This document shows positions 541 through 19,958 of a DNA stretch of 64,000 nucleotides, in pieces. The notes beneath the pieces are model-generated. The model saw only the letters and a program-made list of their open reading frames with translations, had not been told where the DNA came from and searched no databases. This DNA is from Pseudohongiella sp. (GTDB lineage: Bacteria > Pseudomonadota > Gammaproteobacteria > Pseudomonadales > Pseudohongiellaceae), in NCBI RefSeq assembly GCF_011050365.1, contig NZ_DRFV01000016.1, positions 1-64,000 of the forward strand, given 5' to 3'. The stretch's first letter is position 1. Each line of letters begins with the position of its first letter. Position numbers and translations under genes: made by a program.

Positions 541-559
541 AAGCAATGGCCTGCACGGT

Positions 560-756
560 CCAGTGCGTGTGTCAGGATGGCTGATTCGGGAGATGCTGTC
601 AGCGACAATGCCGGGTAACGGATACATAGTTCGTTGCGTATGCCGGGCAAAGATCCTCAGCTCGGATGTTGGTTCAATGAAAAATAAGGCATTTAGTACG
701 GAAGGGAATTTGGTGCGGCCACCTGGGCTCAAACCTGGGGAAAACGGGTGATGAGA
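560..756. repeat. Island repeat unit R1 (most diverged tRNA 3'-half copy)
   Basis: Bases 711-756 align without gaps to the last 46 bases of the tRNA at 19,284-19,360, in the same orientation, with about 10 mismatches. The left flank has the shared landmarks of the other units: an ACGGA...ATAG element at 618 and the words TTCAATGAAAAATAAG near 673. The landmark-to-tRNA spacing is about 93 bp, against 99-100 bp in the better preserved units. It is the outermost and most decayed copy, and is read as an old attachment-site junction. Confidence 0.7.
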
Positions 757-1324
757 AAGAGCAGATCGGCGTAGATCGGTACATTAAGCTGGAAAAAGTA
801 AAAAGTGATTGAATATCGAACCAAATGATTTTACCGAAACCGACCGTATACCGAGCCTTGATTCCCCGAGCCCGCCAAGTTGAAGAACGGACATGGAGTT
901 GCGGTCTCGTTATCGTCTCTCAAGTCTATACGCGCCGTGATTGGCTATAAGACGTAGGATACTTGCCGGAGACCGTTAATCAGGCTAGTGTCTAAAGGTT
1001 AGCTTTATAAACCAGACGGGCATGATTTTCATGCATGTAAGATACGGATTATAAAGTAAATATTTTTCAATGGCGTCGATTTGGCCCAGAGTAAGTCAAT
1101 TAAGCCACTGGACCGGTAGCGCTCAACCCGGAAAGCTGCAGCGAGTTGAATGCAATAAACTGCCTGCTTGAACACGGTCATTTGGACAGCAGGGTTGAGA
1201 ATTGCTGATGATAAAAATACCATCGGCATTTTGGCAGGCATTACAAGCGAGGCGATGAAAGCGATCGTTCGAACAGATTGAGTCAATGGGAAAAATAATG
1301 AATATGTCCGCGAAGGGGGCAATG
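757..1324. other. Gene-free leader before the stressosome operon
   Basis: No convincing reading frame is present. The region must hold the promoter of the five-gene operon that starts at 1325, but I see no clear sigma-70 hexamer pair. A purine-rich ribosome site (AAGGGGG, 1313-1319) lies at its right end. Confidence 0.5.
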
Positions 1325-1753
1325 ATGACAGAAAGCTATACTATGTCAGAGGAAGAAAATGCAGCCCGCATACCAGTGTCCGAGCTCTGGGAGGGTGTTC
1401 TCCTGCTTTCACTCAACGGTATTGTCGATTCGGCACAGTCCCAGCATGTGATGGACGTTGTGCTCAATAAAATCGCTGAAACCCGGGCCCGGATCTTCAT
1501 TCTGGATATTCGTGCCGTGGTTGCGATGGACACAGCTGTGGCCAATCACTTAATCAAGATTACCCAGGCGGCATCATTACTTGGGTGCGAGTGCGTCATA
1601 TCCGGAATTTCCCCCGCGGTAGCTCAATCGCTGGTGCAGTTGGGTATTTCGCTGGACGATGTCGTTACCCGGGTTACCATCAGCGATGCGCTAAGCTATG
1701 CCTTTGATCGACTTGCGTTGCAGGTTGTTTCGCGCGGCAATAACATACCCTGA
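1325..1753 (+). CDS. STAS-domain protein, RsbR-type stressosome subunit without a sensor domain
   Basis: The protein is a single STAS domain of about 110 residues with a short N-terminal extension. It matches the C-terminal half of RsbR proteins: the motif MDTAVANHL carries the expected phosphorylatable Thr, and GISPAVAQSLV has Ser at the second regulatory site (residues 83 and 115 counted from the upstream start at 1286). In known stressosomes RsbR proteins form the shell with RsbS and carry N-terminal sensor domains (globin, PAS and others); none is present here. The start at 1325 is preferred because AAGGGGG lies 5 bases upstream; 1286 and 1322 are in-frame alternatives. It abuts the next STAS gene by one base, so the two are surely co-transcribed. 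Confidence 0.75.
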   Translation: MTESYTMSEEENAARIPVSELWEGVLLLSLNGIVDSAQSQHVMDVVLNKIAETRARIFILDIRAVVAMDTAVANHLIKITQAASLLGCECVISGISPAVAQSLVQLGISLDDVVTRVTISDALSYAFDRLALQVVSRGNNIP

Positions 1754-2223
1754 TGGCGACTAAGCTTTCGACAGACGAGGAATTAACCGCGGGCGTACCT
1801 AGTAGCGGGGCGTCGCAGCCAGAATTACAGCATGTCAGAACTCTCAGCCGTTATGCCATGCATATCACGAATGACTGTCTTGTTGTGACATTGCCCACCG
1901 ATCTGGATTCGGAGGTGACCAGAGAACTTAGCGCGCTTCTGAATCTTGTCGATCGCCATAGGCATCGTGGACTCGTTATAGATCTGTCGCTTATGGACAT
2001 CTTGCCGTCAAAGCTGGCGAGCCTGCTGGAGCAGTTGTCGCGGGCGTCCAGTCTGTTAAACGCGCCGACCGTCATCTGCGGCATAAAGCCGGGCCTTGCT
2101 TCAGCGTTGGCTCTGCTTGGTATCAGGTTTGACGGTGTGCGAAAAGCCAGAAATATGGATCACGCCCTCGCCGAGCTCACTCAATTACGGTCGGCAAATG
2201 TTGCTGTACGTAGCGGATATTAG
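1753..2223 (+). CDS. rsbS: STAS-domain protein, RsbS-like stressosome scaffold
   Basis: This 156-residue protein is a STAS domain (about residues 35-145) after a polar N-terminal tail. The core strand and helix read VIDLSLMDILPSKLASLL, placing Ser86 where RsbS carries its single regulatory phosphoserine. In the Bacillus system RsbS and RsbR hold the RsbT kinase until stress-induced phosphorylation releases it. The gene overlaps the preceding STAS gene by one base, and the kinase gene follows three bases after its stop. RsbS is normally shorter (about 120 residues), so the N-terminal tail is an oddity. The family is clear; assignment as RsbS rather than a second RsbR rests on gene order and the phosphosite motif. 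Confidence 0.72.
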   Translation: MATKLSTDEELTAGVPSSGASQPELQHVRTLSRYAMHITNDCLVVTLPTDLDSEVTRELSALLNLVDRHRHRGLVIDLSLMDILPSKLASLLEQLSRASSLLNAPTVICGIKPGLASALALLGIRFDGVRKARNMDHALAELTQLRSANVAVRSGY

Positions 2224-2226
2224 CGT

Positions 2227-2616
2227 ATGGTCGAATTTGTGGTAACTGATGGCCGCGATGTTAAGAACGTCGTGGAGGGTGCGCAAGCTATGCTTCGAGA
2301 AGTGCCGTTTGGTCGAGCCGAGCGCTTTCTGGTCGCTACCGCCGTCAGCGAACTCGCCCGTAACCTCGTTGTTCACGCGGGCGGCGGGGTTGTGCGCCTG
2401 AGTGTGCTTGAGGAGCAGGACCGCCGTGGCTTTGAGGTTGTCACCGAGGATGAGGGGCCCGGTATTGCCGACTGGCCCCTTGCACTGACCGAAGGGTATA
2501 GCACGGCGAACTCGCTGGGGCTCGGTCTACCGGGGGTGCAACGCATCATGGACGAACTGGATTTTGACGAAAATCGCTTAGTGGGAACGCGGATTGTCGC
2601 GAGGAAGTGGGTATGA
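2227..2616 (+). CDS. rsbT: RsbT-like serine/threonine kinase of the stressosome
   Basis: A 129-residue GHKL-type ATPase-kinase. Its N-box is SELARN (residues 41-46), its G1 motif DEGPG (75-79) and its G2 motif GLGLPG (about 98-103), all intact and spaced as in RsbT. RsbT phosphorylates RsbR and RsbS and, once freed, activates a partner: the RsbU phosphatase in Bacillus, other outputs elsewhere. It lies directly after two STAS genes and overlaps the phosphatase gene by ATGA, so translational coupling is likely. No RsbU, RsbV, RsbW or sigma-B gene follows, so its released form must act on something else; the diguanylate cyclase two genes downstream is the obvious candidate. Confidence 0.85.
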   Translation: MVEFVVTDGRDVKNVVEGAQAMLREVPFGRAERFLVATAVSELARNLVVHAGGGVVRLSVLEEQDRRGFEVVTEDEGPGIADWPLALTEGYSTANSLGLGLPGVQRIMDELDFDENRLVGTRIVARKWV

Positions 2617-3212
2617 GCCGGTTACGCCTCGATACTGGCATCGCCACTCGACCGATCCCGAGCGAGTTGAGCCAGGCATGCGGCGATATCGGACTTGTTC
2701 GGCTGACCGGCAGTGGTTTGTTTGCCGCCATGATTGACGGACTTGGCCATGGCCCGCTGGCGCAGGCCGTGGCAAGTGAGGCCCGCGACTACCTGATTCA
2801 ATGCGATCCGGACAGTACCCTGGACTCAATCATGTCGTCGCTTCGACAGCAATTGCGTGGCGGCAGAGGTTGCGTAGCAGCCCTTTGCCGCGTCGATGCA
2901 CTGGAAGGTTGTTTCGAGTTTTGTGGACTTGGCAACATTACCACGCGTATCGTCGGCACATCATTTAAAACATTTGTTCCTCAGGATGGCATCATCGGTC
3001 AGGTCGCGCCTGCGCCAATTGTCCAGCGCCAGTTACTGGCAGCTGATAGCGTTGTCGTGATGCATAGTGATGGCATCTCCTCACATATCGGCAATGTTGG
3101 TCTCGAGCGACTTTTGCAGGGTGATCCGCAGTTAGCAGCAGAACGACTGGTAGAGACCTTCGGACGCGACTCCGACGACGCTGGCTGTGTTGTGATCAGG
3201 ATTAAAGCATGA
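2613..3212 (+). CDS. rsbX: RsbX-like PP2C/SpoIIE-type phosphatase
   Basis: The 199-residue protein is a compact PP2C (SpoIIE-type) phosphatase. Metal-site landmarks are CGD (residues 23-25), MIDGLGHG (about 40-47) and HSDGISSH near the C-terminus. RsbX dephosphorylates the STAS proteins to reset the stressosome. The ATG at 2613 overlaps the kinase stop as ATGA; a GTG two codons upstream is possible but has no better ribosome site. Its stop in turn overlaps the start of the cyclase gene (ATGA). No sensor or membrane part is attached, which argues for feedback resetting rather than an RsbU-type output. Confidence 0.8.
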   Translation: MSRLRLDTGIATRPIPSELSQACGDIGLVRLTGSGLFAAMIDGLGHGPLAQAVASEARDYLIQCDPDSTLDSIMSSLRQQLRGGRGCVAALCRVDALEGCFEFCGLGNITTRIVGTSFKTFVPQDGIIGQVAPAPIVQRQLLAADSVVVMHSDGISSHIGNVGLERLLQGDPQLAAERLVETFGRDSDDAGCVVIRIKA

Positions 3213-4312
3213 ATGAACTTCTGGAGCTTCCGTTAGAAACGGATGAGGATTGTGTCGCCGTCGGCAAACGGATTCACAGGCTGGCACTGGATATCGGCTT
3301 CTCCGATGCTGCGGCTATCCGCGCAGGGCTTTCGACCTGTGAAATTGCCACGAGGCTCAGTGCGGACGCCCGCCGCGCCCGTATCCATGTTGGATTTCAG
3401 CCCTCTGAAACTGGTTTCTACCTCGCCATTTTTCTCCCCGGTGAGCTGAAGCCATCGGAGCGGGAGCTTGCGAATGTGATGTTCGACCGTGTCGTTGACC
3501 TGACGTCTGCAGAGTCAATCAGCGGCAGCATGATACTTCAGGAAGTGCCAGACAAGGGATTCATGCCTACTGAATCTTTTATGGAGAGGCAGCGTGCGCG
3601 AAGCTCGGAGCTGTCGCGCTCCGAGCTTTTATCCGAGTTGAGTGATCGTAATGCGGAACTCAGGTCGCTGTTGGTCGAGCTGCGCACCCGTGCAGAGGAT
3701 GACCGCCGACGTGAACAGGCTGCGTCTGCACGGGAATACCGAAAGAATCTGGAGCTGAGCAGCGCCTACGCGGAGTTGAATGAACTGCGCGAGAAGGATC
3801 GTCAGCTCGCTAATTTCGATATTCTTACAGGGTTACCCTCGCGTGTATTGTTCAACGACCGCCTTGCCCAGGCCCTCGCTCATGCTGGTCGCGACAAGAC
3901 CAGAGTCGCACTATGCTTTATGGATCTGGACCGATTTAAGGCGGTGAATGATAACGGTGGGCATAGTGCCGGTGATCGCGTATTGGCAATGGTTGCCGAT
4001 AGGTTGAGTGAGGGTCGCCGGAGCTCCGACACGATTGCACGAATCGGCGGCGATGAGTTCACTCTGATCCTCCCCGATATTTCAGATATTGAAGCCGCAA
4101 AAAATATCGCCCGGTCCATAATAGATTCTATCGCGCAGCCATTTATGGTCGAAGGTAGCTGTTACGGAATTGGTATCAGCATTGGCGTCGCGTTTTTTCC
4201 GGACGACGCTGTCGAGATAGAGGCATTAATCCGATGTGCTGACACGGCCTTGTATTCCGTGAAGGCAGCAGGACGTAACGATGTACGCTGCTATGCGGAA
4301 ATAAGCGATTAA
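3209..4312 (+). CDS. Diguanylate cyclase with degenerate kinase-like N-terminus; presumed stressosome output
   Basis: The protein has 367 residues. The N-terminal 110 residues resemble an RsbT-type ATPase fold (helix AAIRAGLSTCEIATRL in place of the N-box), but the N-box Asn and glycine boxes are missing. Residues 125-205 form a long charged coiled coil ending in the usual GGDEF linker (DILTGLPSR). The cyclase domain has an intact GGDEF at 280-284 and a product-inhibition site RSSD at 271-274, so it should make c-di-GMP with feedback control. It is the last gene of the operon and overlaps the phosphatase by ATGA. The N-terminus could dock on the stressosome or RsbT; that is inference. Confidence 0.82.
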   Translation: MNELLELPLETDEDCVAVGKRIHRLALDIGFSDAAAIRAGLSTCEIATRLSADARRARIHVGFQPSETGFYLAIFLPGELKPSERELANVMFDRVVDLTSAESISGSMILQEVPDKGFMPTESFMERQRARSSELSRSELLSELSDRNAELRSLLVELRTRAEDDRRREQAASAREYRKNLELSSAYAELNELREKDRQLANFDILTGLPSRVLFNDRLAQALAHAGRDKTRVALCFMDLDRFKAVNDNGGHSAGDRVLAMVADRLSEGRRSSDTIARIGGDEFTLILPDISDIEAAKNIARSIIDSIAQPFMVEGSCYGIGISIGVAFFPDDAVEIEALIRCADTALYSVKAAGRNDVRCYAEISD

Positions 4313-4329
4313 ACCATAATTGAACTAGT

Positions 4330-4791
4330 ATGCGAGATCAAGTGCAGGCACTGGTAAGTTAACTCCTTATCTGCAAGAATCCGTCATATGACTCAATAAA
4401 AATTCTACAATCGCCACCGTATCCCGCCTGAAATCATGCAATATGCTGTCTGGCTCTACCATCGATTCAGCCTTAGCCATCGAAATATTGAAGATCTAAT
4501 CGCTCACGTGGTTTTGAGGTCAGGGCCAGTCAGTCACTGGCTAAGAAGGGTTCTACGCCGACTGTACAAACACAACAGGGAAGAGGGCCCGGGGCCCATA
4601 GCAATGATATTGGGTTTGAACGCGCGCGTCATGCGCACCCAGGCAACGGATGCATAGTCCGTTACTCAGGCCGGTCATGTTTCCGCCAATAGGATGAAAA
4701 GGCATTGAAAAAAAAGGAAATATTGAGAAAATTGCCTGGAACAGTGCTGAGGCAACCTGGGCTCGAGCCAAGGGCAAACGGACTATGACTC
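4330..4791. repeat. Island repeat unit R2 with IS6-type remnant and tRNA 3'-half copy
   Basis: From left to right it holds a segment shared with R5 (TTAACTCC...ATCTGC), a truncated IS6-type transposase start, a shared flank beginning GGGTTCTAC (4548), the hairpin ACGGA-TGCATAG-TCCGT (4646-4662) and a tRNA-derived segment (4745-4791, 37 of 47 bases identical to the tRNA). Hairpin-to-tRNA spacing is 99 bp, equal to that in R4 and nearly that at the tRNA itself (100). It closes the stressosome cargo and opens the gabT cargo. Confidence 0.75.
4388..4547 (+). pseudogene. IS6-family transposase N-terminal remnant
   Basis: Reading from ATG 4388 gives MTQ, a stop, then KFYNRHRIPPEIMQYAVWLYHRFSLSHRNIEDL with small gaps. 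This is the start of IS6-family transposases (RFPPEII..AVWLY.RF.LS.RDIEDLL). The remnant carries an in-frame stop at codon 4 and breaks off after about 45 codons, so the DDE catalytic domain is gone. The same fragment, cut at nearly the same place, occurs in R5. Confidence 0.72.
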
Positions 4792-4924
4792 TTCTCTGAA
4801 GCGTTCGCAAAATCGAAGTAGAACCAGACAATTCTGAAAGTTCTGTTGAATCGATTTGTTTAACGGTACTTTGGTGCATAGAATCCATTATGAGTCTTTT
4901 AATTTATCCAATGGAGTATGAAAA

Positions 4925-6202
4925 GTGAGCAATCAAGAATTACAGGCGCTAAAAGAACGTTACGTTGCAGCTGGTGCGGCAAGTCCAAATGAACAATTCG
5001 CCGACCATGCACTTAATGCAGAGATTTGGGACGCTGATGGCAAGCGCATGATCGACTTTGCCGGTGGTATTGGTGTTCTAAACATCGGTCATTGCCATCC
5101 AAAAGTCGTTGCTGCCGTTAAAGCGCAGCTAGATAAGGTAATGCACACTTGCCAAACCGTTATGCCGTATGAAGGGTATGTGAAACTGGCCCAGAGGCTG
5201 GCTGAAGTCGCACCTGTAAAGGGTGATGCGAAGGTGATGCTGGCCAATTCGGGTGCAGAAGCGCTGGAAAATGCGGTTAAGATCGCTCGTGCTGCCACCA
5301 ATAAGAACAATGTGATCTGCTTTGACGGGGGATATCATGGCCGTACCTTCATGACCATGGCCATGAACGGCAAAGCAGCGCCTTACCAGAATGATTTCGG
5401 CCCGATGCCTGGCTCAGTCTATCGCGCGCCTTATCCGGTTCCCTACCATGGTGTCAGCGACGAAGAAGCTCTGCGCGGCCTGAAAATGACAATGAAGTCA
5501 GATTCTCCCGCAGGAGACACAGCTGCTATCGTTATTGAGCCTTTGTTGGGTGAAGGTGGGTTTTATTCAGCATCTCCCCAATTCCTTCAGGAAATTAGGA
5601 AGATTTGTGATGAAAACGATATTTTGATGATTGTTGACGAAGTACAAAGTGGCTTTGGCAGAACCGGGAAAATGTTCGCTATTGAACACAGTGGCGTTCA
5701 GCCAGACATGATGACCATGGCCAAATCAATGGCTGCTGGCATGCCTATCTCAGCAATTGTGGGGACTGATAAAGTGATGGATGCGTCCGGTCCTAATTCG
5801 CTAGGTGGAACGTATACGGGCAGCCCAACCGCCTGTGCCGCGGCATTAGCGGTTTTTGATGTCTTTGAGGAAGAAGATATTCTTGGTAAAAGTCAGCGTT
5901 TAGGCGAAAAGCTACATGACCGCTTCGTTCAATGGGAAAAACAATTTCTACACGTTGCCAATCCCAGAAATTTGGGTGCCATGGCAGCCTTTGAACTGGT
6001 AGAAAGTAAAGAGTCGCGACAACCCAAAGCTGAGATGGCAGCTGCCATTATAAAAAAAGCTCAAGAAAAAGGACTGATATTGCTGGCTTGCGGTCTGTTT
6101 GGTAACTCCATTCGTTTTCTCATGCCGATCACAATTGAAGACGAGGTGCTGGAAGAAGGCTTGAATATTGTTGAAGAAAGCCTGAAAGAAGTGGGTGCAT
6201 GA
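4925..6202 (+). CDS. gabT: 4-aminobutyrate aminotransferase (class III, PLP)
   Basis: The 425-residue protein has full family length. It transfers the amino group of GABA (or a related omega-amino acid) to 2-oxoglutarate, giving succinate semialdehyde and glutamate. The PLP lysine lies in TMAKSMAAGMP (Lys267); the cofactor-binding IVDEVQSGFGRTG (about 236-248) and the substrate-side NSGAEALENAVK (108-119) are intact. The start is GTG 4925 with GGAG at 4913-4916. No gabD dehydrogenase, permease or regulator is nearby: it is the sole gene between repeat units R2 and R3. Sister enzymes acting on 5-aminovalerate or beta-alanine look alike, so the exact substrate is unsure. Confidence 0.88.
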   Translation: MSNQELQALKERYVAAGAASPNEQFADHALNAEIWDADGKRMIDFAGGIGVLNIGHCHPKVVAAVKAQLDKVMHTCQTVMPYEGYVKLAQRLAEVAPVKGDAKVMLANSGAEALENAVKIARAATNKNNVICFDGGYHGRTFMTMAMNGKAAPYQNDFGPMPGSVYRAPYPVPYHGVSDEEALRGLKMTMKSDSPAGDTAAIVIEPLLGEGGFYSASPQFLQEIRKICDENDILMIVDEVQSGFGRTGKMFAIEHSGVQPDMMTMAKSMAAGMPISAIVGTDKVMDASGPNSLGGTYTGSPTACAAALAVFDVFEEEDILGKSQRLGEKLHDRFVQWEKQFLHVANPRNLGAMAAFELVESKESRQPKAEMAAAIIKKAQEKGLILLACGLFGNSIRFLMPITIEDEVLEEGLNIVEESLKEVGA

Positions 6203-6231
6203 TACGTTGTCATAGGTAATGTAAAACTCAC

Positions 6232-6409
6232 CCGCTAACGACAAAACCTGCGCACCGGGCTATGATTCCGCCGTTTGATTCAGGCAACGAGCGCATAGTC
6301 CGTCACTTTTGCCACCAAAAAGCAGCCAAAGTCGTGGTAAGCAGATGAAAAAAAGGAAAATATGGAGGGCCCATCAGGACTCGAGCCAGGGACAGGCGTA
6401 TTATGAGTC
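6232..6409. repeat. Island repeat unit R3 (tRNA 3'-half copy)
   Basis: Bases 6363-6409 match the tRNA 3' 47 bases at 40 positions, through the anticodon loop. The left flank holds the half-hairpin CGCATAGTCCGTCACT (from 6292), but the hairpin-to-tRNA spacing is about 76 bp, as though 24 bp had been lost. It separates gabT from the cyclase/TPR/TraF cargo. Confidence 0.72.
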
Positions 6410-6539
6410 AGATTCTGGCAACGATCGCCAACCACCATCAGCATAAAAACATATAAATACCTCAGTTTTGTGGTTGGGGCTTATGGCGGCGCGCGATTGT
6501 TGCTGGAGTAGATGTGCAGATGTGTACAGGTCTGCGAGA

Positions 6540-8327
6540 CTATTTTATCTTGAAGTGCCAGATGCCGTTCCAGTCTGCAGGCGGTGCGTTATTTTCAAAT
6601 TCCTTGATCCGCGCCATCATGACCAGTGAAGGCCCATCCTCCGGGTGTAGTTCCAGACAACGGGAGAGGTTGTCTCTGGCACGATTCCAATCCCTACTGC
6701 GATAGGCGGCAAGCCCGGCTTCGTAGCAACGAAAGAGTTCGGTGAGCTCGGCTTCAACGGTTCCAGCCAGCGCGAACAATTCATAGATTGTTGTCACTTC
6801 GTCTTTTCCTGCCACTGCTACGCGGTCAATTTCCCGAAGCTCGAAATGCTCATCGATTCTGGCGCGAGTCCGTTCGTCGATCAGTATTCGGGTGTGATAG
6901 TGCTTGTTGAGACTTTCCAGACGCGAGGCCAGGTTCACGGCATCTCCCATGACGGTATAGGATTTGGAGTTCTCGGAACCGATATTACCGGTGAGCACAT
7001 CACCGGTGGCCAGGCCTACGCGGATGTGGATGTCGGGTAAGCCTTTACGAAAACCAAGAATCTCGGGAAGAGTGGCGTGCAGCTTGCTGAGCTGTTGAAA
7101 CTGGGCCAGTGCAGCCTGGCAGGCGAGTACAGCGTGGTTTTCTTCCCCCGTGAAGGGTGGCCCCCAAAATGCCATAATTGAGTCGCCGATGTACTTGTCG
7201 ATGACGCCTTTTTCCTCAAGTATCGGTTCAGTCATGGTGCAGAGGTAGTGATTGATCAGGCGGACCAGACCACCAGGAGTCAGTGATTCAGAAATTTTAC
7301 TGAACCCCTCAACATCTGAAAAGAACACGGTCATTTCCTGATTGTTGCCACTCAGTTTTGCCTGTTCAATACCTTGGCCAAGCAAGGAGTCAACAATGCG
7401 TGGATCAACGTATTTGCCGAACAACTCTTTCACCTGATTTTTAAAACGAAGCTCCTGTGCCATGTGATTAAAGGTAAAAGCCAACTGGCCTACTTCATCG
7501 TGGCTGCTGGGAATGACTTCAATGTTGAGATTGCCTTTGCTAATTTCTTCTGACTTGGCTTTGAGGTCGCGCACTGGATTCACCAGCCGGGTTGTAATGC
7601 GAGCCGAGATTACGATACCAACCAGAAACACGATAAAAGTGAGTATAAAATTCTGCTGATAGATACCAAGAATCATGGATTCCGCAGCTTCAATCTCCTC
7701 GGCCTGGGTACTGTTGAGCTGTTCCAGGCTGAGCAGCATTGCCAGCAGCTCCGCATTGAGGTGATCCGCCTCTACTTGAAGTTGGTCCAGCCTGCCTGCA
7801 AATTCCCCGGTATCGGCAGACTCAAGATCGTCGATCAAACCCAGGGCGTGTCGAAAATATTCGCCATGCTCCTTTTCAATATTTTCGAGAAGCAAACCTA
7901 TTCGGCCAAACTGGATGGCATCGAGGGGGCTCAAAAACTGAGGCTCTGCCAGAGTTTCATCGAGAATGCGACGTGCCACAACAAGCTCTTCCTGCACCAG
8001 GGTTTCGAAACGCATGAATTGCTCGCGATCGACGTCAATCATCTCGCGTGCATCTGGGTCGCTGCTCCACAATCGCATCATGCGTTCCAGATAGAGTTCT
8101 TCTTCGAGTGAATGCACATCAATGTTTGCAGCGACCTGGGCGAGCGGCAACACCCGATGGGCAAGGTGGGTGACGCGGACCTTGACATCGTTGACTTTGA
8201 AGTAGGAGATCACGAAAGAAACACTGGCAGCAATCAGCATCACGGTCACCAATGCTGAGGTGAGCCCGAAAACCTTGACCCATATAGAGCGGAAGCGAGG
8301 TGGTGTTTGCGCAGAAGTCATGGTCAT
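6540..8327 (-). CDS. Membrane-bound class III adenylate cyclase with HAMP and TPR-like tail
   Basis: The 595-residue protein has TM1 (about 17-42), a mostly helical periplasmic sensor (about 45-222), TM2 (about 227-244), HAMP (about 245-297) and a class III cyclase domain (about 325-505). The C-terminal tail of 90 residues resembles one or two TPR helices pairs (AGLAAYRSRDWNRARDNL). Metal aspartates are at FFSDVEGFS (Asp338) and DKYIGDS (Asp382). Lys378 and the Asp of VMGDAVNLASRLE (Asp462) are the adenine-selecting pair, so cAMP is the expected product. The gene sits in the third cargo block, together with a TPR gene on the same strand. The signal sensed is not evident. Confidence 0.87.
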   Translation of the reverse strand: MTMTSAQTPPRFRSIWVKVFGLTSALVTVMLIAASVSFVISYFKVNDVKVRVTHLAHRVLPLAQVAANIDVHSLEEELYLERMMRLWSSDPDAREMIDVDREQFMRFETLVQEELVVARRILDETLAEPQFLSPLDAIQFGRIGLLLENIEKEHGEYFRHALGLIDDLESADTGEFAGRLDQLQVEADHLNAELLAMLLSLEQLNSTQAEEIEAAESMILGIYQQNFILTFIVFLVGIVISARITTRLVNPVRDLKAKSEEISKGNLNIEVIPSSHDEVGQLAFTFNHMAQELRFKNQVKELFGKYVDPRIVDSLLGQGIEQAKLSGNNQEMTVFFSDVEGFSKISESLTPGGLVRLINHYLCTMTEPILEEKGVIDKYIGDSIMAFWGPPFTGEENHAVLACQAALAQFQQLSKLHATLPEILGFRKGLPDIHIRVGLATGDVLTGNIGSENSKSYTVMGDAVNLASRLESLNKHYHTRILIDERTRARIDEHFELREIDRVAVAGKDEVTTIYELFALAGTVEAELTELFRCYEAGLAAYRSRDWNRARDNLSRCLELHPEDGPSLVMMARIKEFENNAPPADWNGIWHFKIK

Positions 8328-8410
8328 CCGGCTTGGTTGCAGTTCGACACTAAGTATACCCTAGTGGAACGCTGGTTTATGCATCAATGCCTAATGTGGT
8401 AATTCACGAT

Positions 8411-9097: not shown

Positions 9098-9191
9098 GAC
9101 GCCCTCCTGTCTGTGATGTGTCATTAACTTGACCACAATATATCTTGATCGCTTTGTACTGTAATACCCCCTTTTTTGCAACGAAAAGCTC

Positions 9192-12012: not shown

Positions 12013-12225
12013 AAAAATCTCTCAATGGGTATCATTTAAATCCAGTGAGAGCGTATACAAAGGATCTGCAAAAAACATGAAATTGGCGTTAAAAATAGAT
12101 TAATAATAGATTAAAAAAAAGAGAGGTGGCCCCGCAGCGAAGGGCGTCAGCACAAGTGAGCTTACGCTTTGTCTGAGGCACACTAATGTCCCGGTATCAG
12201 GAGTCAATCATGAGCAGACGACCGA
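12013..12225. other. Upstream region of ompW
   Basis: Short gene-free stretch holding the ompW promoter (minus strand) and unassigned island DNA. It contains A-rich runs but no motif I can name. Confidence 0.4.
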
Positions 12226-12653
12226 GGTGTTCAAAGGGTACTGACCAGTTAACTCCCAATCTGCCAGACTCTTTGGCATGACTGAATCGAAAGCGTACAA
12301 GCGTCAGCGATTCCCGTCTGAAATTATTCGATGGGCCGTCTGGCTCTATCACCGCTTTAGCCTTAGCCATCGAGATATTTAAGATTTACTCTCTCGGCGT
12401 GGTATTGAGGGGGTTCTACCCCGACTATACGAACACAGCTGAAAAGGGCGCCGGGATCCGAGGCAAGGATATTGGGTTTGAACGCGCGCGTCATGCGCAC
12501 CCAGGCAACGGATGCATAGTCCGTCACTCAGACCGGCCAAAAGTCCGCTACTTCGATTCTAATTCAATGAAAAATAAGGAGTTTAATGCGGAGGGGAGGC
12601 AAAAATATGGTGGGCCCACCTGGACTCGAACCAGGGACAAACGGATTATGAGT
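12226..12653. repeat. Island repeat unit R5 with IS6-type remnant and perfect 46-bp tRNA copy
   Basis: Its order matches R2: the shared TTAACTCC...ATCTGCC segment, the IS6 transposase start, a flank from GGGTTCTACC (12411) and the hairpin ACGGA (12508) / TCCGT (12520). It ends in a tRNA-derived segment, 12608-12653, identical over all 46 bases to 19,284-19,329. The identity stops just past the anticodon loop. Hairpin-to-tRNA spacing is exactly 100 bp, as at the tRNA itself. Confidence 0.82.
12278..12410 (+). pseudogene. IS6-family transposase N-terminal remnant
   Basis: From ATG 12278 the reading is MTESKAYKRQRFPSEIIRWAVWLYHRFSLSHRDI, a stop, then DLLSRRGIE. This is the IS6-family transposase N-terminus. 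The stop after about 34 codons and the loss of everything beyond RGIE make it non-functional. The cut lies close to that of the R2 copy, so the two descend from one truncated ancestor inside the repeat unit. Confidence 0.78.
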
Positions 12654-12934
12654 AAGCGTAAACCGGCTGAGTTCGACGCAGTAAGTTAAAGAAAGCTAAC
12701 AAAAAAAACCTATTTGCATCAGCTCCCATGTCCGAAACCGACCAGAATCCGAGATTTTCGGTTTTCATTGAGCCCGACCGAAACGGCTACGTGTAAGAAG
12801 CTGAAGGGGTTATGTCGCACCGAACTCCGAACTTTTTCCGAGGTCTGCCTCTTATCGACTATGTAGAGGGCGGCGGCAGAACAGGGATGTCTCATCGAGC
12901 AAGTGGACTAATTTTTAGGTAAGTTCAGCTACGT
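12654..12934. other. Intergenic stretch, no gene seen
   Basis: Gene-free DNA between repeat R5 and the stop of the LuxR-type regulator. No terminator or reading frame is convincing. Confidence 0.4.
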
Positions 12935-13735
12935 TCATAGATAGCCTTTTTTGATACAAGTCACCACCAGGTCTACCGAGTTCTTAGCGCCGGCTTTGCG
13001 GATCATGTTCTTGCGATGCGTGGCTACTGTCTGGGAGGAGATATTTAATTGTTGCGAAATTTCAGTGGTGGAGTGCCCGTCACCGAGCAATCTTAATACC
13101 TCCATTTCCCGTCGGGAAAATTCATTTCCGGCCAGGCTAAATTGATAGGGTCTGAAATTCTCAAATGCAGGCTTCCCGAACACATCAATATCTGTGTAGG
13201 AAGGTTCGCCATCAAGGCCGATTAGGGAAAGCTTGTAGTTGTTTGTGGAAGTGATATGGGAAATGTCTGCGTGGGCGCCAAAGACTTTGAGCAGGGCGCC
13301 ATCGGGGGTGGTTTTCAGCGTCAATGTCTGCAACAGGAAAAGTCGGTAGCTGCCGTCTCGCGTGCGCAACCGCCAGCAATAACAGATTTTGTATTTGACG
13401 ACTTTCTCTGGCGCGATGCAGTTCTTCAGGAAGAAGGCGACCATGTCCTCGCAGCGAAGAAAAAATTCCATATCTTCTGGATGCAGGCGATCAATGACAT
13501 CCTGAATAGTTGCATTTTTTGCTTCGATGCCAAGCACGTTCAGTATGGATTCACTGACTCGGTCAAAGGTGAGAGAGGGAGAGTCGATCACGTAATAAAA
13601 AAATGGACCTGGACAAAAACAGTGAGCCAGAAGGTTCGATAGATTAGGAAAATCAAGCGAACCTGAATTCCCCCCCCCCAAATAGTTTTTGTGCGACTTC
13701 CAGATGTCTAATACGATCTCCTTGTGATTCGACAA
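12935..13735 (-). CDS. PAS-LuxR transcriptional regulator with in-frame ten-G tract
   Basis: The 266-residue protein has a PAS-like sensory region (about 45-165, with DRLHPEDMEFFLRCEDM and a WRLRTRDGSYRLF strand) and a C-terminal LuxR-type HTH (about 205-266, FSRREMEVLRLLGDGHSTTEISQQL). It should bind DNA in response to a cytoplasmic signal. Codons 19-22 (Leu-Gly-Gly-Gly) contain ten consecutive G residues (plus-strand C run 13670-13679). Slippage by one base would stop translation early, so its expression may be phase-variable. It lies upstream of two large exported-protein genes on the opposite strand, which are plausible targets. Confidence 0.85.
   Translation of the reverse strand: MSNHKEIVLDIWKSHKNYLGGGNSGSLDFPNLSNLLAHCFCPGPFFYYVIDSPSLTFDRVSESILNVLGIEAKNATIQDVIDRLHPEDMEFFLRCEDMVAFFLKNCIAPEKVVKYKICYCWRLRTRDGSYRLFLLQTLTLKTTPDGALLKVFGAHADISHITSTNNYKLSLIGLDGEPSYTDIDVFGKPAFENFRPYQFSLAGNEFSRREMEVLRLLGDGHSTTEISQQLNISSQTVATHRKNMIRKAGAKNSVDLVVTCIKKGYL
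13670..13679 (-). repeat. G10 homopolymer tract inside luxR-type gene
   Basis: Ten consecutive G on the coding strand near codon 20. Tracts of this length are typical of contingency loci switched by slipped-strand mispairing. The current length keeps the gene in frame (ON). Confidence 0.8.
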
Positions 13736-14021
13736 TTTCCGACTCCCATGTTGCAGGTGGCGGCCGTCATTCAGTCGTCCGCTTCACAGTTATACCTTAT
13801 GGTAAATTAGCCCATTCTTCAGAAAATTCAGCCGTAGTAGACAATATGAATTATTCTATATCGGTTCATCCAATAAAAATACCCATTTTTGGGGATACAT
13901 ATCTCGCGGCACATTGCTCTAGCATGGCTCATCTAGTAGAACCTCGCATGTCTGGCTCGCAAATAAAGCAGGCGGCTCACAAGTGAGCACTCTGATAGCT
14001 TCGAAATGAGGACGAACAACA
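13736..14021. promoter_or_regulatory. Divergent intergenic region between regulator and exported-protein gene
   Basis: Both flanking genes start from this 286-bp AT-rich region, so it must carry two promoters and probably operator sites. I cannot pick out a dependable hexamer pair. A GAGG ribosome site precedes the ATG at 14022 by about ten bases. Confidence 0.45.
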
Positions 14022-16061
14022 ATGTTAATACGAGCGGTCGTCGCGATATCCTTCATTTTTCTTACAGCGAGCCCAGGCACGGTCGTGGCGCAGACATACG
14101 ATGGTCAGTGGCGAGTCTCTGAAACTGTCAACGCTACCGCTTGCGGGGAAGGGACTTCCGTCGACACCTATACGGCAACGGTTACACAGTCTGGGTCCTC
14201 GATGTCAGTATCAGCTAGCGGAATAATCCGCAGTGGTACAATTAGTGGTAACAAATTGAGTTACTCAGTGAGTTACCCAGAGGACGGAGGCACACTTACC
14301 GGGTCAGGAACCATCACATTCGATGGCGCGGCTGCCTACGGAAGCAGCAATTGGAGTTGGACTGGCGGCAGCTTGACCTGTGTGGGTACTAGCAGTATTA
14401 GTGCCGCGCTACTTAGCTCGCCGACACCGACACCGCAGCCTATCGGAACTGCCCCTGCGCTCACCTATCTGCTGACAGGCACCAAGATAGACCTTAGTTG
14501 GAGCGCAACATCGGCTGCACAAAGCTATACGCTTTTCTACGCTCCATACCCGGCCATGTCGCCTATTTACTCGCTGGAGCTGGGTCAAGCGCTTTTACTG
14601 TCTGAGCGGTTATCTGTTAGTGACGCTTTCTACATCGCCATACAGGCAAACCTAGAAGGTGGCGGGACGCTGCTTTCGAACATAGAGAGCTTTCATATTA
14701 CCGGTGTGGACGTTGTCGAAATAAGCGATCCCAAGTCCGATATTTCGGCGATTATCTATGGTGAGAATGGCAACAGTTTAGTGACCTTGAATAGCAGCTC
14801 CACGTCAGAAGCTGTACTGAACTTCAAAGACGGAAAACAGGGAGTGATGCTCGGTGATATAAATGGCCGATTGCTTGAACTACGTGTAGAAGGTTTTACT
14901 GCGAAACTAAGTTATGGGCTGGGTACGAAGCAGATAACCATCACCGCCCCGGACGGCTCAACGAGCATGTTGTCCACTTCCTCCTTGAGCCAGGCAGCAT
15001 CCTGTTCCAGGCCCAGTGAGTGTAGTACCGCTGCAGGCATCGTATCGAACCTGGAAAGCGATGAAGTCAGTGTATTTGAACGGCTTGTAGACGACGCAAT
15101 CGATACCTTTCGGAATATATCCACCGTGCCATTTTGCGCGCAACCTGTTGGCGCTCCAGTCTGCAACACGGTAGAAACCTATGCAGAGCGTGCGGATACT
15201 TTAAGGGAGCGCCTGACCAATCGGGTTCAGACAAACATCAGCCGGATTGGTAATGCATTAACCTGTACAGTTTCCACGGACAAGTGCAGTGAGACGGCTG
15301 CAAAGGAAGCGCCGAAGATTCTACGGCAGCTGAACAACAATACGAGCATTACGCCCCCTACAGCAGGATTCAATATCGGCGCAGAGAAGGCCACTCCGAA
15401 AGATGCCTGGAAAGAGTATTTGGGTGACGGCAGCTTTACGATGGTTGAACTGCCATGCTCTGAGGATGTGTTTGCTAGCATGAGGCCGGAGTGTGGGGGG
15501 GATGATGTCAACTCTCCAACGGGGTCCGGTAGCGGTGACGGTTCGGTCGCACCCGAAAGTCCCAACATCGACGCAAGTTTCGACAACGTGATTGCAAGAT
15601 GCGTAGACACTCCTGCTGACATTGGGTGCTTCAATGCAGAGGATTTTCCAATCGGGGTCCATAAGCACTTTAGCAACGTGAATACCAATCGCTATCTCAG
15701 TATTGAAGATCACTATAGTGGATATACGCTCAAGCGCACGAGGTACTATGCAAGCGGGGCAGTAAGCTATACATCGAGCTCCGTTTATATTGAAAATGAA
15801 TACGGAACTCTATACTGGGCTGAAGATGGTGAATCAAAGTCATATTATGAAGATGGCACACTAAAGCTAATTCAGAACTTCAAGCGGGGTGCTTTAGATG
15901 GTATATCAAACCATTACAGAGAGAATGGCGTAATACGCACCAGCAGCACCTATAAAGATGGTAAGTTGGATGGCGCTCTGAATACCTACGATTCGAACGG
16001 AAAGCTAATTAATACCAGTATTTTTTCAAATGGTGTAAAAATTAGTAGTACGAATTTTTAA
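14022..16061 (+). CDS. Large exported protein with C-terminal MORN-like repeats, function unknown
   Basis: The 679-residue protein has a clear signal peptide (MLIRAVVAISFIFLTASPGT to VVAQ). A beta-rich Ser/Thr/Gly domain (about 25-130) leads to a proline linker (PTPTPQP) and a fibronectin-like stretch (about 145-230). A central domain contains cysteines (about 320-540), probably disulphide-bonded. The last 130 residues repeat a YxxGxL..GxxxxYxxNG pattern (YYEDGTLKLIQNFKRGALDG, HYRENGVIRTSSTYKDGKLDG), like MORN-variant antitoxin or effector tails. It is probably periplasmic or surface-exposed. I do not recognise the family. Confidence 0.6.
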   Translation: MLIRAVVAISFIFLTASPGTVVAQTYDGQWRVSETVNATACGEGTSVDTYTATVTQSGSSMSVSASGIIRSGTISGNKLSYSVSYPEDGGTLTGSGTITFDGAAAYGSSNWSWTGGSLTCVGTSSISAALLSSPTPTPQPIGTAPALTYLLTGTKIDLSWSATSAAQSYTLFYAPYPAMSPIYSLELGQALLLSERLSVSDAFYIAIQANLEGGGTLLSNIESFHITGVDVVEISDPKSDISAIIYGENGNSLVTLNSSSTSEAVLNFKDGKQGVMLGDINGRLLELRVEGFTAKLSYGLGTKQITITAPDGSTSMLSTSSLSQAASCSRPSECSTAAGIVSNLESDEVSVFERLVDDAIDTFRNISTVPFCAQPVGAPVCNTVETYAERADTLRERLTNRVQTNISRIGNALTCTVSTDKCSETAAKEAPKILRQLNNNTSITPPTAGFNIGAEKATPKDAWKEYLGDGSFTMVELPCSEDVFASMRPECGGDDVNSPTGSGSGDGSVAPESPNIDASFDNVIARCVDTPADIGCFNAEDFPIGVHKHFSNVNTNRYLSIEDHYSGYTLKRTRYYASGAVSYTSSSVYIENEYGTLYWAEDGESKSYYEDGTLKLIQNFKRGALDGISNHYRENGVIRTSSTYKDGKLDGALNTYDSNGKLINTSIFSNGVKISSTNF

Positions 16062-16460
16062 CGAATTTGGAGAAAATATAAGTATTGGTATTCTTGCAGA
16101 AAATTGCGTAGCTGCGGCGCTCAGGTCGGATGAGACGCAATCCGCGGCATTGGATGCGGCCGCTGGCGAAGCGGACTGATGCATAGTATTGACTGTCTGC
16201 AGCTCGGTAATTATGTGAATATACTGGAGCTTAAGGCCTATATGTTTTTGACTAATATGAATATAAAGATTGTCCAAGACCTTTTTATTCGATTTCTTAC
16301 ACCCGCAGTAATTTGTTTCTATCTACTCGTATTTGGCCCGAAAAGATACATAAGGGGTACTACTGAGACGGTGATATTACCAGTGTGTAATTCGTATTCT
16401 AAAACCAAGTCGAATGTTATAGTGCATGCAATAGCATCCCCAAGTTAATTAGGAACCTTT
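16062..16460. other. Intergenic stretch, no gene supported
   Basis: A roughly 400-bp AT-rich gap between two exported-protein genes. A possible 89-codon frame (16179-16448) has no ribosome site or family resemblance and is not accepted. The phrase GCGGACTGATGCATAGT near 16172 recalls the island hairpin, but no tRNA copy follows. AGGA precedes the next start by eight bases. Confidence 0.4.
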
Positions 16461-18659
16461 ATGTTTCGATACCTCTGCAAGGCCAACTTTCTAGTGCTTT
16501 TACTGGGATTCAGTAACTTAATAGCGACAACACCGTCGTTAGCGCAAGAAGCCTATTTAATTGGCGCACGATTGACTCTGCCCACCGTTGACGTAGACGG
16601 CCAATACTACAGAGCAGAATTGGACATAGTTCCGGACACTGAACCCGTAGAGCTTGTCTTAACCAGCGGATTAGTTCTGGCAACAGCTGCACCGTCAAAT
16701 CCCGCCACTTTTTCCAACAACACTCTTAATATTCCCTTCCTTTCCTTTGGAGGGACTGACTATAAATTGGGGCTAGAGCTAGTGAATCCATCCCCAATGC
16801 GATTCAGACTTAGCAGCGCAACACCCATTGTGAGCGACAATATTAGTAACCCGGCAAGCATTGATGAAGCGATGCTGTCATTTAATGATTTCGAAAATGG
16901 CCTCTTTGGCTCTGTAGATGCATCACCAGGCTGGAAACTAGAGTCGAATATTGATGGCAATAGCTATTACTGTAACGCGCCCGGCAACACTTACAGCTCG
17001 TTCCGAGTGGGTGATAGCAGCTGGAGTAACTACGCGTTTGAAGCGCGGGTAAGACGCAATAGCAACAATGCAGATGGCTACCTTGAACTCTATGCGCGCT
17101 TCGACAATTCAAATGGCAATGGTTACCGAGCTGCACTAACTAAGGACTATGCCTTTCTTTCTTACGCGTCTCCCAGCAAAAACTGGCCGGGCAAAAGCGT
17201 CGATGCTGGAGTCGATCAATGGGTTACCCTCCGAGTTGAGCTGGTAGGTACTAATGTAAAATTCTTTGTTAATGGGCAACTGGTCTCGGAAACGACGGAC
17301 TCAAGTATTGCAAATGGTGTAGTGGGCGTTGGCGCAAACCCAAACACTTCGATCTGTATTGACGACTTGAAGGTCTGGGCTATTGACGAAAAAGGGCCCG
17401 TTGATCGAGATGTGCTAGGCGCACCGGACCCTTTTAATACAGCTTTGAAATACGCAGGTGCGTGTACATTTTGTTTCATGAGCGAAGACCCGCTATCCCC
17501 GGTCGCAAATGGTCAGGGTGGTTACAGACCTAATGACAGCGATACGCGCGAACAAATAGTAATAGATCAGACATTCTCTGTTCCAGCGGGCCAGGAGGTA
17601 ATTTGGGACAACAAGATTGTCTGGGTAAGGCCTACCCAGCGCGGCAATATCAATGTATTTGGTAAACTTACGATAGAGAACTCTCTACTGCTGTGGGAGC
17701 AGAACCAACACCAACAGACTCGACTTATCGTGAAAGACGGCGGATCGCTCTCCGTTGCGAGTTCCTATGCCTTTACTACAAACCCATTTCTTCTAAATTG
17801 GGACTACGAAAGTGGATCAACAATTTATTATGACAAAATGGTAAGCAATCACTGGACAGCCCTTTCTGGCTCCGTAAACTACACCTCCAAGAACTACTCG
17901 TCTGCCAGGCTCACAATTTTCGAAAATGTGCATAATGCAAACATTCAGATCTCGAATGCTCATCATGTTTGGCTAGAGGTCTTTCCACCTGCCGGTAATC
18001 ATACGATCGTATTCCCAGATAAAAAACCCGTATGGGCCAACTGGCATCTTAATGGACTTTGGCCCGCAACAACTGTGGCGATTGAAGAAAGCTACATCTA
18101 TGATAGGGATATTAGTCTTACTGCAGACGTGCACGCTACAATTGCTGACACCCCTAGCGGATTCAGCGTCGGCTGGGCGGTCAATAGCAATGACGCACAA
18201 ACACGGTCCTGCGAAATACGCGGGCTGGGTGACCCAAACAATAACGACGGTAAGCTTTATACTAAGAAGAGCTGGGATGTAAGTTGCAATAATTCTTCTT
18301 TGACTGTTATTAATTCAAAGGTCCAACGTGCGTGGCCAAATCCGTACGGTAACGTAACGCTGCGCGTCTACGATTCCAACCTCGTAGATCCGCGCAATTT
18401 TGGAAATCCCGGTGGTTCGCCCACAACATTCGAGGTTTATAACTCCAGAGTAGAAAACCTGGCAGCTTACCAAGGCGGAAGGGTTTATGCGGAGAATGTT
18501 AAAATTGGCACAGATATCGAGGTCAAAGACAATGGTACTCGCGTCTATGGCTACAATGTAGCCCGTAGTGAGGGGACAGGTCCTGTCACGGTGATTCAGG
18601 CGGGAGGGGGACTTTATATAGAGCTTTCGGAACCGGGAGCGCCGTGGGCGACGCCCTAG
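16461..18659 (+). CDS. Large exported protein: concanavalin-like domain plus beta-helix-type C-terminus
   Basis: The 732-residue protein has a signal peptide ending SLAQ. A region of about 145-310 has the phrasing of laminin-G/3-keto-glycoside-hydrolase-like jelly rolls (SNYAFEARVRRNSNNADGYL, DQWVTLRVELVGTNVKFFVNG). The C-terminal 350 residues are beta-strand and Asn rich with short repeating turns (SLTVINSKVQRAW, NVTLRVYDSNLVD), suggesting a right-handed beta-helix as in surface adhesins or polysaccharide-active proteins. No catalytic residues are identifiable. It may pair with the preceding exported protein in a surface function; that is inference from adjacency only. Confidence 0.6.
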   Translation: MFRYLCKANFLVLLLGFSNLIATTPSLAQEAYLIGARLTLPTVDVDGQYYRAELDIVPDTEPVELVLTSGLVLATAAPSNPATFSNNTLNIPFLSFGGTDYKLGLELVNPSPMRFRLSSATPIVSDNISNPASIDEAMLSFNDFENGLFGSVDASPGWKLESNIDGNSYYCNAPGNTYSSFRVGDSSWSNYAFEARVRRNSNNADGYLELYARFDNSNGNGYRAALTKDYAFLSYASPSKNWPGKSVDAGVDQWVTLRVELVGTNVKFFVNGQLVSETTDSSIANGVVGVGANPNTSICIDDLKVWAIDEKGPVDRDVLGAPDPFNTALKYAGACTFCFMSEDPLSPVANGQGGYRPNDSDTREQIVIDQTFSVPAGQEVIWDNKIVWVRPTQRGNINVFGKLTIENSLLLWEQNQHQQTRLIVKDGGSLSVASSYAFTTNPFLLNWDYESGSTIYYDKMVSNHWTALSGSVNYTSKNYSSARLTIFENVHNANIQISNAHHVWLEVFPPAGNHTIVFPDKKPVWANWHLNGLWPATTVAIEESYIYDRDISLTADVHATIADTPSGFSVGWAVNSNDAQTRSCEIRGLGDPNNNDGKLYTKKSWDVSCNNSSLTVINSKVQRAWPNPYGNVTLRVYDSNLVDPRNFGNPGGSPTTFEVYNSRVENLAAYQGGRVYAENVKIGTDIEVKDNGTRVYGYNVARSEGTGPVTVIQAGGGLYIELSEPGAPWATP

Positions 18660-19009
18660 ACTTATTAAGTAAAAGTGCGATGTTCAACAAACGCCGGACA
18701 AAATAACGCATTTTAGTGCTCCATAACGTTTTGAACTTCGTACTTTTAATCGATTTGGCCGGAGGCAAGGTCAATAGGTACCAGGGCGGGAAACATATAG
18801 TGCACTGATGAAGCCAGTATTAGAGAAACTGACCGGAGACGACATGATCGCTCAGGCCGCATACCCCGCCATGTCAGGGCCGTGCTGGCTGGAAGTCTTT
18901 TTAATCAACGTCTTGCTGGCTTGTGTCAGACACGAAAGATTATTCGGCATTTAGTCAGGGCAAATCCCTAAGTTTGTCCAAAGCGGGCAAATTACGGTAG
19001 CAATTACAA
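18660..19009. other. Right end of cargo 5, no supported gene
   Basis: Gene-free DNA. A 48-codon frame from ATG 18808 to the stop at 18954 is open but lacks a ribosome site and any family likeness. The words GATTATTCGGC here also occur near 354 at the left island edge, a possible trace of a shared element end. Confidence 0.4.
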
Positions 19010-19061
19010 TATTGCAGAAATTGCCGGAAATAGTGGTGGGCCCACCTGGACTCGAACCAGG
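19010..19061. repeat. Perfect 52-bp direct repeat of tRNA 3' end and flank (R6)
   Basis: Bases 19010-19061 are identical to 19260-19311, 250 bp to the right. They cover 24 bases beyond the tRNA plus its last 28 bases (CCA, acceptor strand, T arm). This is the cleanest and presumably youngest duplication in the island. It encloses a 250-bp unit without a gene. Confidence 0.85.
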
Positions 19062-19159
19062 TGTAATGCCCCCATTACCCGAAGCAGCTATCAGGAGAAT
19101 CTAAGTGCTGCCATCAGCAATCGTCGAGGTTGAGCGGGTGGGGTAGGGTCAAGGCCGGA

Positions 19160-19283
19160 AGTAGCGGACTATATCCTTAAGTGACGGATGCATAGTCCGT
19201 CACTTATACCGGCCAAAAGTCCGCTACTCGGAAGCTAATTCAATGAAATACAAGGGATTTATTGCAGAAATTGCCGGAAATAG
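19160..19283. repeat. Conserved flank next to the intact tRNA (R7)
   Basis: This is the best preserved version of the segment that precedes each partial tRNA copy. It includes a perfect 9-bp hairpin, AGTGACGGA / TCCGTCACT with a 7-base loop (19180-19204), 100 bp before the tRNA CCA end. The hairpin resembles the anticodon arm of the adjacent tRNA (ACGGA-TTATGAG-TCCGC on the plus strand). Downstream of the minus-strand tRNA, it could also act as its terminator or processing signal. Confidence 0.7.
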
Positions 19284-19360
19284 TGGTGGGCCCACCTGGA
19301 CTCGAACCAGGGACAAACGGATTATGAGTCCGCTACTCTAACCAACTGAGTTATAGGCCC
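19284..19360 (-). tRNA. tRNA-Ile2 (anticodon CAT), integration target of the island
   Basis: The 77-base minus-strand cloverleaf has a 7-bp acceptor (GGGCCTA / TGGGCCC with one G-U), D stem ACTC/GAGT, anticodon stem GCGGA/TCCGT with loop CTCATAA, T stem CCTGG/CCAGG and an encoded CCA. The anticodon CAT is at 19324-19326. C4-G69 and C5-G68 in the acceptor favour lysidine-modified tRNA-Ile2, which reads AUA, over elongator tRNA-Met; an automated caller may label it Met. Its 3' half is the source of all island direct repeats. Confidence 0.85.
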
Positions 19361-19381
19361 GCGCAGTACAACCGAAGGCGG

Positions 19382-19955: not shown

Positions 19956-19958
19956 GCC

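Follow-up and report, generated by a model that had tools for sequence, protein, structure and literature searches.

Stacked insertion of elements at tRNA and tmRNA genes has already been described, and the array analyzed in this study is therefore a variant of a known phenomenon. The array lies in the first 64 kb (64,000 nucleotides, hereafter the window) of contig C16 (NZ_DRFV01000016.1) in a draft genome of Pseudohongiella sp. (genome G000; 3.63 Mb in 17 contigs), where five blocks of genes (e1 to e5) stand in tandem beside one tRNA gene with the anticodon CAT. We compared it with a family set of 137 genomes; genomes are denoted by G-numbers, and the genus labels used are g1, g4 and g5. No literature on this particular locus was noticed, although searches do not prove absence. 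All statements on published systems refer to excerpts of the cited sources.

In the ssrA islands of Dehalococcoides, elements lie in tandem at one RNA gene together with many direct repeats of its 3' end, a conserved 15-bp motif is found beside the repeat, and the cargo is varied; 15 of the 31 islands had no integration module, and cis-mobilizable elements were proposed (PMC3146451). The array in Pseudohongiella resembles these islands in its tandem stack, its 3'-end repeats, its integrase-less members and its varied cargo. In contrast, the target in Dehalococcoides is the tmRNA, the enzyme is a CcrB-like serine recombinase and the crossover is in the T-loop (PMC3146451), whereas here the target is the anticodon loop of a tRNA(CAT), the candidate enzyme is a tyrosine integrase, and longer arms are present on both sides of some elements. 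In the additive flexible islands of Alteromonas (PMC4119200), Actinomarinales (PMC7771536) and Methylophilaceae (PMC10872708), cassettes are found at a conserved tRNA, the end of which recurs as repeats (in Methylopumilus, 20 nt of tRNA-Lys); the cargo is metabolic, and transfer between genera is described. The array shares with them blocks that differ between relatives at one tRNA and direct repeats of the 3' part at the block ends; conserved arms and a measured wear gradient are found here, and neither was seen in the excerpts of these three sources. Cis-mobilizable elements (CIMEs) keep both attachment (att) sites, have no integrase and are accreted beside the target gene (Pavlovic et al. 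2004 and Bellanger et al. 2011, cited in PMC5704250). Likewise, the window elements have tRNA-half cores at both ends, contain no integrase that could be found and are stacked by later insertions, but no conjugative relative was identified, the integrase-less form is the majority of the delimited elements, and many are only 1-5 kb long. Tycheposons, which are tRNA-anchored cargo elements of marine bacteria, possess a tyrosine recombinase (PMC10872708, PMC11389934); the window elements are also anchored at a tRNA and carry cargo, but no tyrosine recombinase was found in them. The new features are the quantified wear gradient, the candidate helper and the arms by which integrase-less elements are marked throughout the family.

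We consider it probable that the array is a stack of small elements that were inserted serially by a tyrosine recombinase in the anticodon loop of one tRNA(CAT) gene, the integrase being most likely external. Ordered insertion at the anticodon loop is well supported, and a helper acting in trans is plausible. We infer four points: which class of recombinase acts, that it acts in trans, which helper supplies it and how the elements pass from cell to cell. In this reading, the right end of an element would consist of a left arm and a new copy of the 3' half of the tRNA; insertion would restore the tRNA and shift the old 3' half one element outward, and the displaced half, now useless, would decay. 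An integrase supplied from outside would move the window elements.

The intact tRNA gene, presumably the live attachment site with the anticodon loop as its core, is located at 19284..19360 on the reverse strand. It was detected by ARAGORN, which typed it as Met, and it is the sole Rfam family that reached the gathering threshold in positions 1-20000 of the window. To the left of this gene, a repeat search, a profile and an alignment revealed five displaced copies of its 3' half in direct orientation. These copies, with coordinates given on the forward strand, are R1 (711..755), R2 (4745..4789), R3 (6363..6407), R4 (10994..11038) and R5 (12608..12652), and their ungapped matches to the intact half were 36, 35, 38, 41 and 45 of 45, respectively. 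A 27-base piece of the tRNA, with at most 3 mismatches allowed, gave 4 matches in the window (the gene, R5, R4 and a further copy, R6) against 0.00 expected from 100 shuffles; R1 to R3 are too worn for this test and were recovered by the repeat search and the profile. In R1 to R5, the similarity to the tRNA ends at the anticodon-loop sequence TTATGAG, intact or worn, and unlike sequences follow. The site has the form of that of a tyrosine integrase, with the crossover in the 7-nt anticodon loop and inverted stem halves on either side. Most relatives likewise lose identity at TTATGAG, and G007 and one copy in G046 are worn at that point.

The wear of the displaced halves follows the distance from the intact gene. 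From near to far, the 45 nt compared with the intact half contained 0 mismatches in R5, 4 in R4, 7 in R3, 10 in R2, 9 in R1 and 16 in R0, an outlying copy described below. The permutation p value for the distance order was 0.008 over R5 to R0 and 0.042 over R5 to R1. Five ordered segments of other arrays contain at least two displaced copies (in G029, G161, G081 and two contigs of G046), and among their pairs of copies 10 were concordant with distance, 2 discordant and 3 tied; the order of copies in G046, whose intact tRNA (T) is on a third contig, was deduced from the orientation of the repeats. An earlier note on this DNA had claimed six direct copies of the tRNA 3' half with identity falling with distance. 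R1 to R5 and the trend were recovered, but R6 (19010..19061, forward strand; tRNA copy at 19034) does not belong to the series. R6 is an exact 52-nt duplicate of 19260-19311 at a spacing of 250 bp, and we excluded it because it breaks in the T-arm (GAACCAGG/TGTAATG), with no anticodon-loop junction, and is part of the exact 52-nt duplication. It is a separate duplication outside the ladder. The duplication at 19010-19283 of the window is apparently recent.

The array is cut off at its left, where the window start coincides with the contig end within the end of an element resembling an insertion sequence (IS). This IS-like right end (1..143, forward strand) comprises the C-terminus of a transposase and the terminal sequence ...GGGGTAGAACCC, as judged by eye, and a matching left end of a similar element terminates contig C8. 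About 1.7 kb from that end of C8, a bare and worn tRNA 3' half, R0, is found at C8:420438 in the same orientation, adjoining an MFS transporter gene that was named from its sequence without a family search (stretch L069:10425, which equals C8:420424 onward, by the IS-broken contig end). The contigs C8 and C16 are likely joined in the genome, because their IS-like ends match and because the MFS gene and the tRNA locus are on a single contig in G007 and G003, two members of the same genus. Contig C2 also begins within such an IS. R0 is thus probably an extra and most worn copy of the ladder; the search of G000 found arm-bearing copies on C16 only.

Each displaced copy proved to be the right end of a longer repeat that includes a left arm (P) of about 110-240 bp. 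The left arms are located, on the forward strand, at 611..710 (R1), 4639..4744 (R2), 6277..6362 (R3, the most diverged), 10888..10993 (R4), 12501..12607 (R5) and 19177..19283 (the newest element). To the left of the R5 arm, homology to R2 and R4 reaches about 12411 and homology to R2 reaches about 12237, through what appear by eye to be IS-like fragments. The left arm together with the tRNA half recurs in relatives, and the left arms of g1 and g5 contain AACGGATGCATAGTCCGTYRCT, mostly about 100 bp from the tRNA 3' end (about 101 bp in the newest element). This motif, here called the decoy, resembles the tRNA anticodon arm but has a different 7-nt center. In 10 of 13 arms, namely those of G000 (T, R5, R4 and R2), G029 (two), G043, G014, G001 and G003, the decoy matched the 28-nt anticodon arm at 18-21 positions, a score reached by at most 2 of 1000 shuffles; in G003 it lies at 80 bp instead of 100 bp. 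The decoy was weak in R1 (16; 22 of 1000 shuffles) and in R3 (17, at another place; 11 of 1000), and it was absent from the G046 arm, where the best match was 14 (473 of 1000). When 14 chosen left arms were aligned, the block of the motif was nearly invariant. As a side observation, IS6-like transposase genes, whole or fragmentary, recur together with an IS3-like end beside left arms in two genera, all identified by eye (window 12237-12490 and 4347-4600; L063:1427-2122; L066:8136-8735).

A right arm (P') with repeated CCGAAC-type boxes is common to R1, R5 and copies in G029 and G046. Its alignment-based extents in the window, with approximate right limits, are 756..990 at R1 and 12653..12880 at R5 on the forward strand; both were recognized by alignment and then built into the right-arm profile, and they are not independent matches. 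With the G046 arm as query (E<=0.001), the right arm was found in at least 18 of the 137 family genomes, that of G026 being weak. This is a lower bound, since the query misses the right arms of G000, which were seen by alignment, and of G083, which was seen by profile. In the stretches examined, right-arm matches mostly adjoin a tRNA-half core, and the exceptions (G159, G157, G137, G003 and one in G119) are partial matches or have worn cores; the worn core of G003 remains readable. In G003, at L055:8955-9060, a worn remnant of the tRNA half is followed by the start of a right arm and closes the aminotransferase block, the junction being nearly erased. R2 shares its right-arm sequence with G003, and a sequence in G008 is similar to the right arm of R3. 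No arms were found in viral contigs by exact pattern or in plasmids. A phage collection gave 61 matching records, and the 10 matches listed cover only the tRNA half and 14 adjacent bases. A contig labeled Undibacterium (L170; JAUSNO010000002.1) contains the same arm and element as the relatives of Pseudohongiella; it may be misbinned, a suspicion raised because the record shares the sample E19 with G083.

The five elements of the window have tRNA-half cores at both ends, which correspond to putative attL and attR sites as in CIMEs. Element e1 (756..4744, forward strand) encodes two STAS proteins, an HATPase_c_2 protein, a SpoIIE phosphatase and a GGDEF protein; e2 (4790..6362, forward) a class-III aminotransferase of the GABA-transaminase type; e3 (6408..10993, reverse) a HAMP/adenylate-guanylate cyclase, a TPR protein and a TraF_2 protein; and e4 (11039..12607, reverse) OmpW. 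Element e5 (12653..19283) encodes a LuxR/GerE regulator on the reverse strand and a MORN_2-repeat protein and a 732-aa protein on the forward strand. The Pfam content thus differs among the five blocks, and their GC content is 0.455-0.528, compared with 0.573 for the remaining window sequence right of the tRNA. No integrase-like open reading frame (ORF) was detected in e1 to e5 with a home-made profile and phmmer, and in this point they differ from integrative and mobilizable elements and tycheposons, which have an integrase of their own. The Pfam matches of the larger ORFs include no transfer module, TraF_2 being a lone protein. No conjugative element was noticed, and no search was aimed at conjugative elements.

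The same locus was then compared in relatives. G007, G003 and G012 share the right flank of the tRNA locus, and G007 and G003 also share the MFS gene on the left, but different gene sets stand beside the same right flank, as in additive islands. The e2 aminotransferase is present in two of the three relatives (G007 and G003), the e3 TPR gene is present in all three at another place in the order, and none of the marker genes of e1, e4 or e5 was detected in the stretches examined of these genomes. The DNA of e2 is 89% identical to that of G003 and G007, compared with 78-82% in the neighboring chromosome. In both G000 and G003, the e2 block begins at a tRNA-half junction, the P' start being the same, and in G003 it terminates at a worn remnant of another such junction. 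The blocks thus do differ individually, but they have also been rearranged or lost.

Integrase-less elements were also found across genomes. By the same profile and phmmer, no integrase-like ORF was detected in 23 of the 28 bounded elements (median length of the 23, 4.1 kb); the 28 were delimited by hand from the stretches examined, not from all 137 genomes, and some (in G003 and G159) may be two elements with a lost junction. The remaining five comprise three with an integrase of one clade (G029_T, G081_T and G083_2), one with IntI (G046_C31_1) and one with a short integrase-like ORF (G159_T). Five elements of only 1.0-1.7 kb carry core copies at both ends. The integrase-less T-proximal element of G159 is 99.3% identical to that of G161 over 3,529 bp, whereas the right flank is 85.7% identical, and the change occurs at the tRNA. 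An element with an MqsA antitoxin (Pfam) is about 98% identical between G043 and G083 from the left arm to the core (97-98%, in two pieces); it stands next to the intact tRNA in G043 and inside the array in G083, where the copy has an internal deletion. An Exo_endo_phos gene and its surroundings are 90-96% identical over 0.9-1.15 kb in G029, G039, G081 and G014, the last belonging to another genus.

As for the enzyme, integrase-bearing elements with matching ends were found in G029 (20 kb), G081 (31 kb) and G083 (35 kb). The integrase of G029 (L051:17611-18816) has Arm-DNA-bind_3 and Phage_integrase domains, and identity to it is 79% for the G083 integrase (C205:18764-19954) and about 40% for the G081 integrase; a close homolog in G005 lies on a short contig without arms. 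These elements carry a primase-like gene (PriCT_2 and DUF3631 in G029; RepB_primase in G083; an 83% relative is in G081). Their cargo is of the DNA methylase or restriction type, and the G083 element has a helix-turn-helix regulator with a 76% relative in G029. Because its ends are shared with the small elements, we propose the Arm-DNA-bind_3 integrase of the 20-35-kb elements as a candidate helper, which is a weak assignment. Among six PF00589 matches in G000, the integrases on C1 (near tRNA-Leu), C11 (near tRNA-Phe) and C9 (beside a tRNA-Leu-like 3' end, by eye) were considered as helpers and rejected, none being tied to the tRNA(CAT) site. Islands with other integrases and other arms occupy this tRNA(CAT) as well, in G010, G042 and G008 (L056, L068 and L058); the integrase is just inside the displaced half in G010 and G042 and just beside the intact tRNA in G008. 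An IntI gene lies within the tRNA(CAT) array of G046 (L063:170-1153, contig C31), with its 3' end beside an attachment arm. The IntI gene of G000 is about 0.4 kb from the end of contig C12, near tRNA-Arg(ACG) (L001), and any remainder of a possible integron there is missing from the assembly; other genome matches to this tRNA-Arg stretch are mostly of about 80 nt and may be other tRNA genes.

The earlier note had read this locus as five unrelated cargoes placed by repeated insertion beside the tRNA, in an island without its own integrase and forming a stratigraphic record. The differing Pfam content, the lack of an integrase-like ORF in e1 to e5, the different blocks within the same flanks of relatives and the nearly identical integrase-less elements in different genomes agree with this reading, and the wear is ordered by distance. 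The comparison of relatives and the search for a trans-acting integrase, which the note had proposed, were partly favorable: blocks are present or absent between relatives and candidates exist in G029, G081 and G083, but several results qualify this reading or weigh against an external integrase. The order of wear is imperfect, R1 and R2 being out of order by one base, and both discordant pairs occur in contig C20 of G046. The order of the aminotransferase and TPR genes differs among G007, G003 and G000, pointing to rearrangement, and the array is therefore not an undisturbed record. The right-arm sequences of R2, R3 and R4 differ from the R1/R5 type. We saw no sign of excision, no circle and no empty site. 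The candidate helper integrase has no match in G000 at E<=1e-50, and distant homologs (33-39%) are away from tRNA(CAT) in the stretches examined. The candidate (L051int) and its distant homologs occurred in 2 of 18 right-arm genomes and in 12 of 119 others (Fisher p=1.0), showing no association with the right arm. Moreover, some shared integrase-less elements, in G029 and G083, adjoin an integrase-bearing one, and these may have moved in cis because of that neighbor.

This last observation bears on an alternative that we regard as rather unlikely, namely that integrase-less elements are only passengers in a composite with an integrase-bearing neighbor and move in cis by accretion and mobilization. 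Such composites are described for CIMEs (PMC5704250), and G029_2 and G083_1 directly adjoin integrase-bearing elements. Against this, the five G000 elements have no PF00589 match on C16 or C8, seven bounded G046 elements are accompanied only by an IntI, and the MqsA element beside the tRNA of G043 has no integrase in the 20 kb examined. A somewhat stronger possibility, though still a doubtful one, is that the blocks came as full islands and lost the integrase after insertion, as in the CIME route, with no mobilization in trans. The integrase-bearing islands at this tRNA in G010, G042 and G008, the short integrase-like ORF in the T-proximal stretch of G159 and the unlike P' sequences of the window at R2 to R4 would fit such decay. 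It agrees poorly with an integrase-less form that is nearly unchanged across genomes (99.3% for G159/G161; about 98% for G043/G083) and with the five elements of 1.0-1.7 kb, which leave little room for a lost integrase; the islands of G010 and G042, moreover, have different right arms.

It is improbable, in our opinion, that IntI drives the array and that the blocks are cassettes of a tRNA-based integron. The gene does lie inside the G046 array beside an arm, another is on C12 of G000, and a G046-type IntI (at least 60% identity, whole or fragment) is enriched in right-arm genomes (8 of 18, namely G029, G046, G093, G116, G119, G121, G137 and G160, vs 20 of 119 others; Fisher p=0.012), but this association is uncorrected for relatedness, and 15 of the 18 arm genomes belong to the single genus g4. 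In addition, 10 of the 18 have no such IntI, IntI and the arms are on different contigs in G160, and the IntI of G000 is only 46% identical to that of G046. Twenty other IntI surroundings contained no arm or tRNA(CAT) copy, and the tRNA found in one of them was a tRNA-Arg. The crossover is in the anticodon loop, and the block boundaries appear unlike attC when set against its consensus. We give equally little credence to a process with no site-specific recombinase, that is, homologous recombination between arms or IS6-like movement. The arms supply homology over 100-240 bp, several elements contain ORFs or fragments of IS6-like transposases (by eye), and the gene order is shuffled among relatives; nevertheless, such a process fails to explain the common start at the anticodon loop with different sequence after it.

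Returning to serial insertion by an external integrase, we tentatively extend it to a two-part system throughout the family, an extension that we hold with less than even confidence. Cassettes would be defined solely by their ends: a left arm containing the decoy, whose 7-nt overlap differs, the 3' half of the tRNA, and a right arm bearing CCGAAC boxes. They would be mobilized in trans by a primase-bearing helper with the same ends. Such a system, equally tentative, would resemble an integron with a tRNA gene as its receiving site, and the wear of the tRNA copies would be a clock of gene gain.

If these considerations are true, integrase-less islands at tRNA genes need not be dead remnants, since the integrase-less form appears mobile, and the ends of the elements can be used for searching. 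The named candidate helper and its named rival, IntI, make mobilization in trans directly testable. The displaced halves, which are free of selection on the tRNA, would record in which relative order genes were gained, and this order can be compared with phylogeny.

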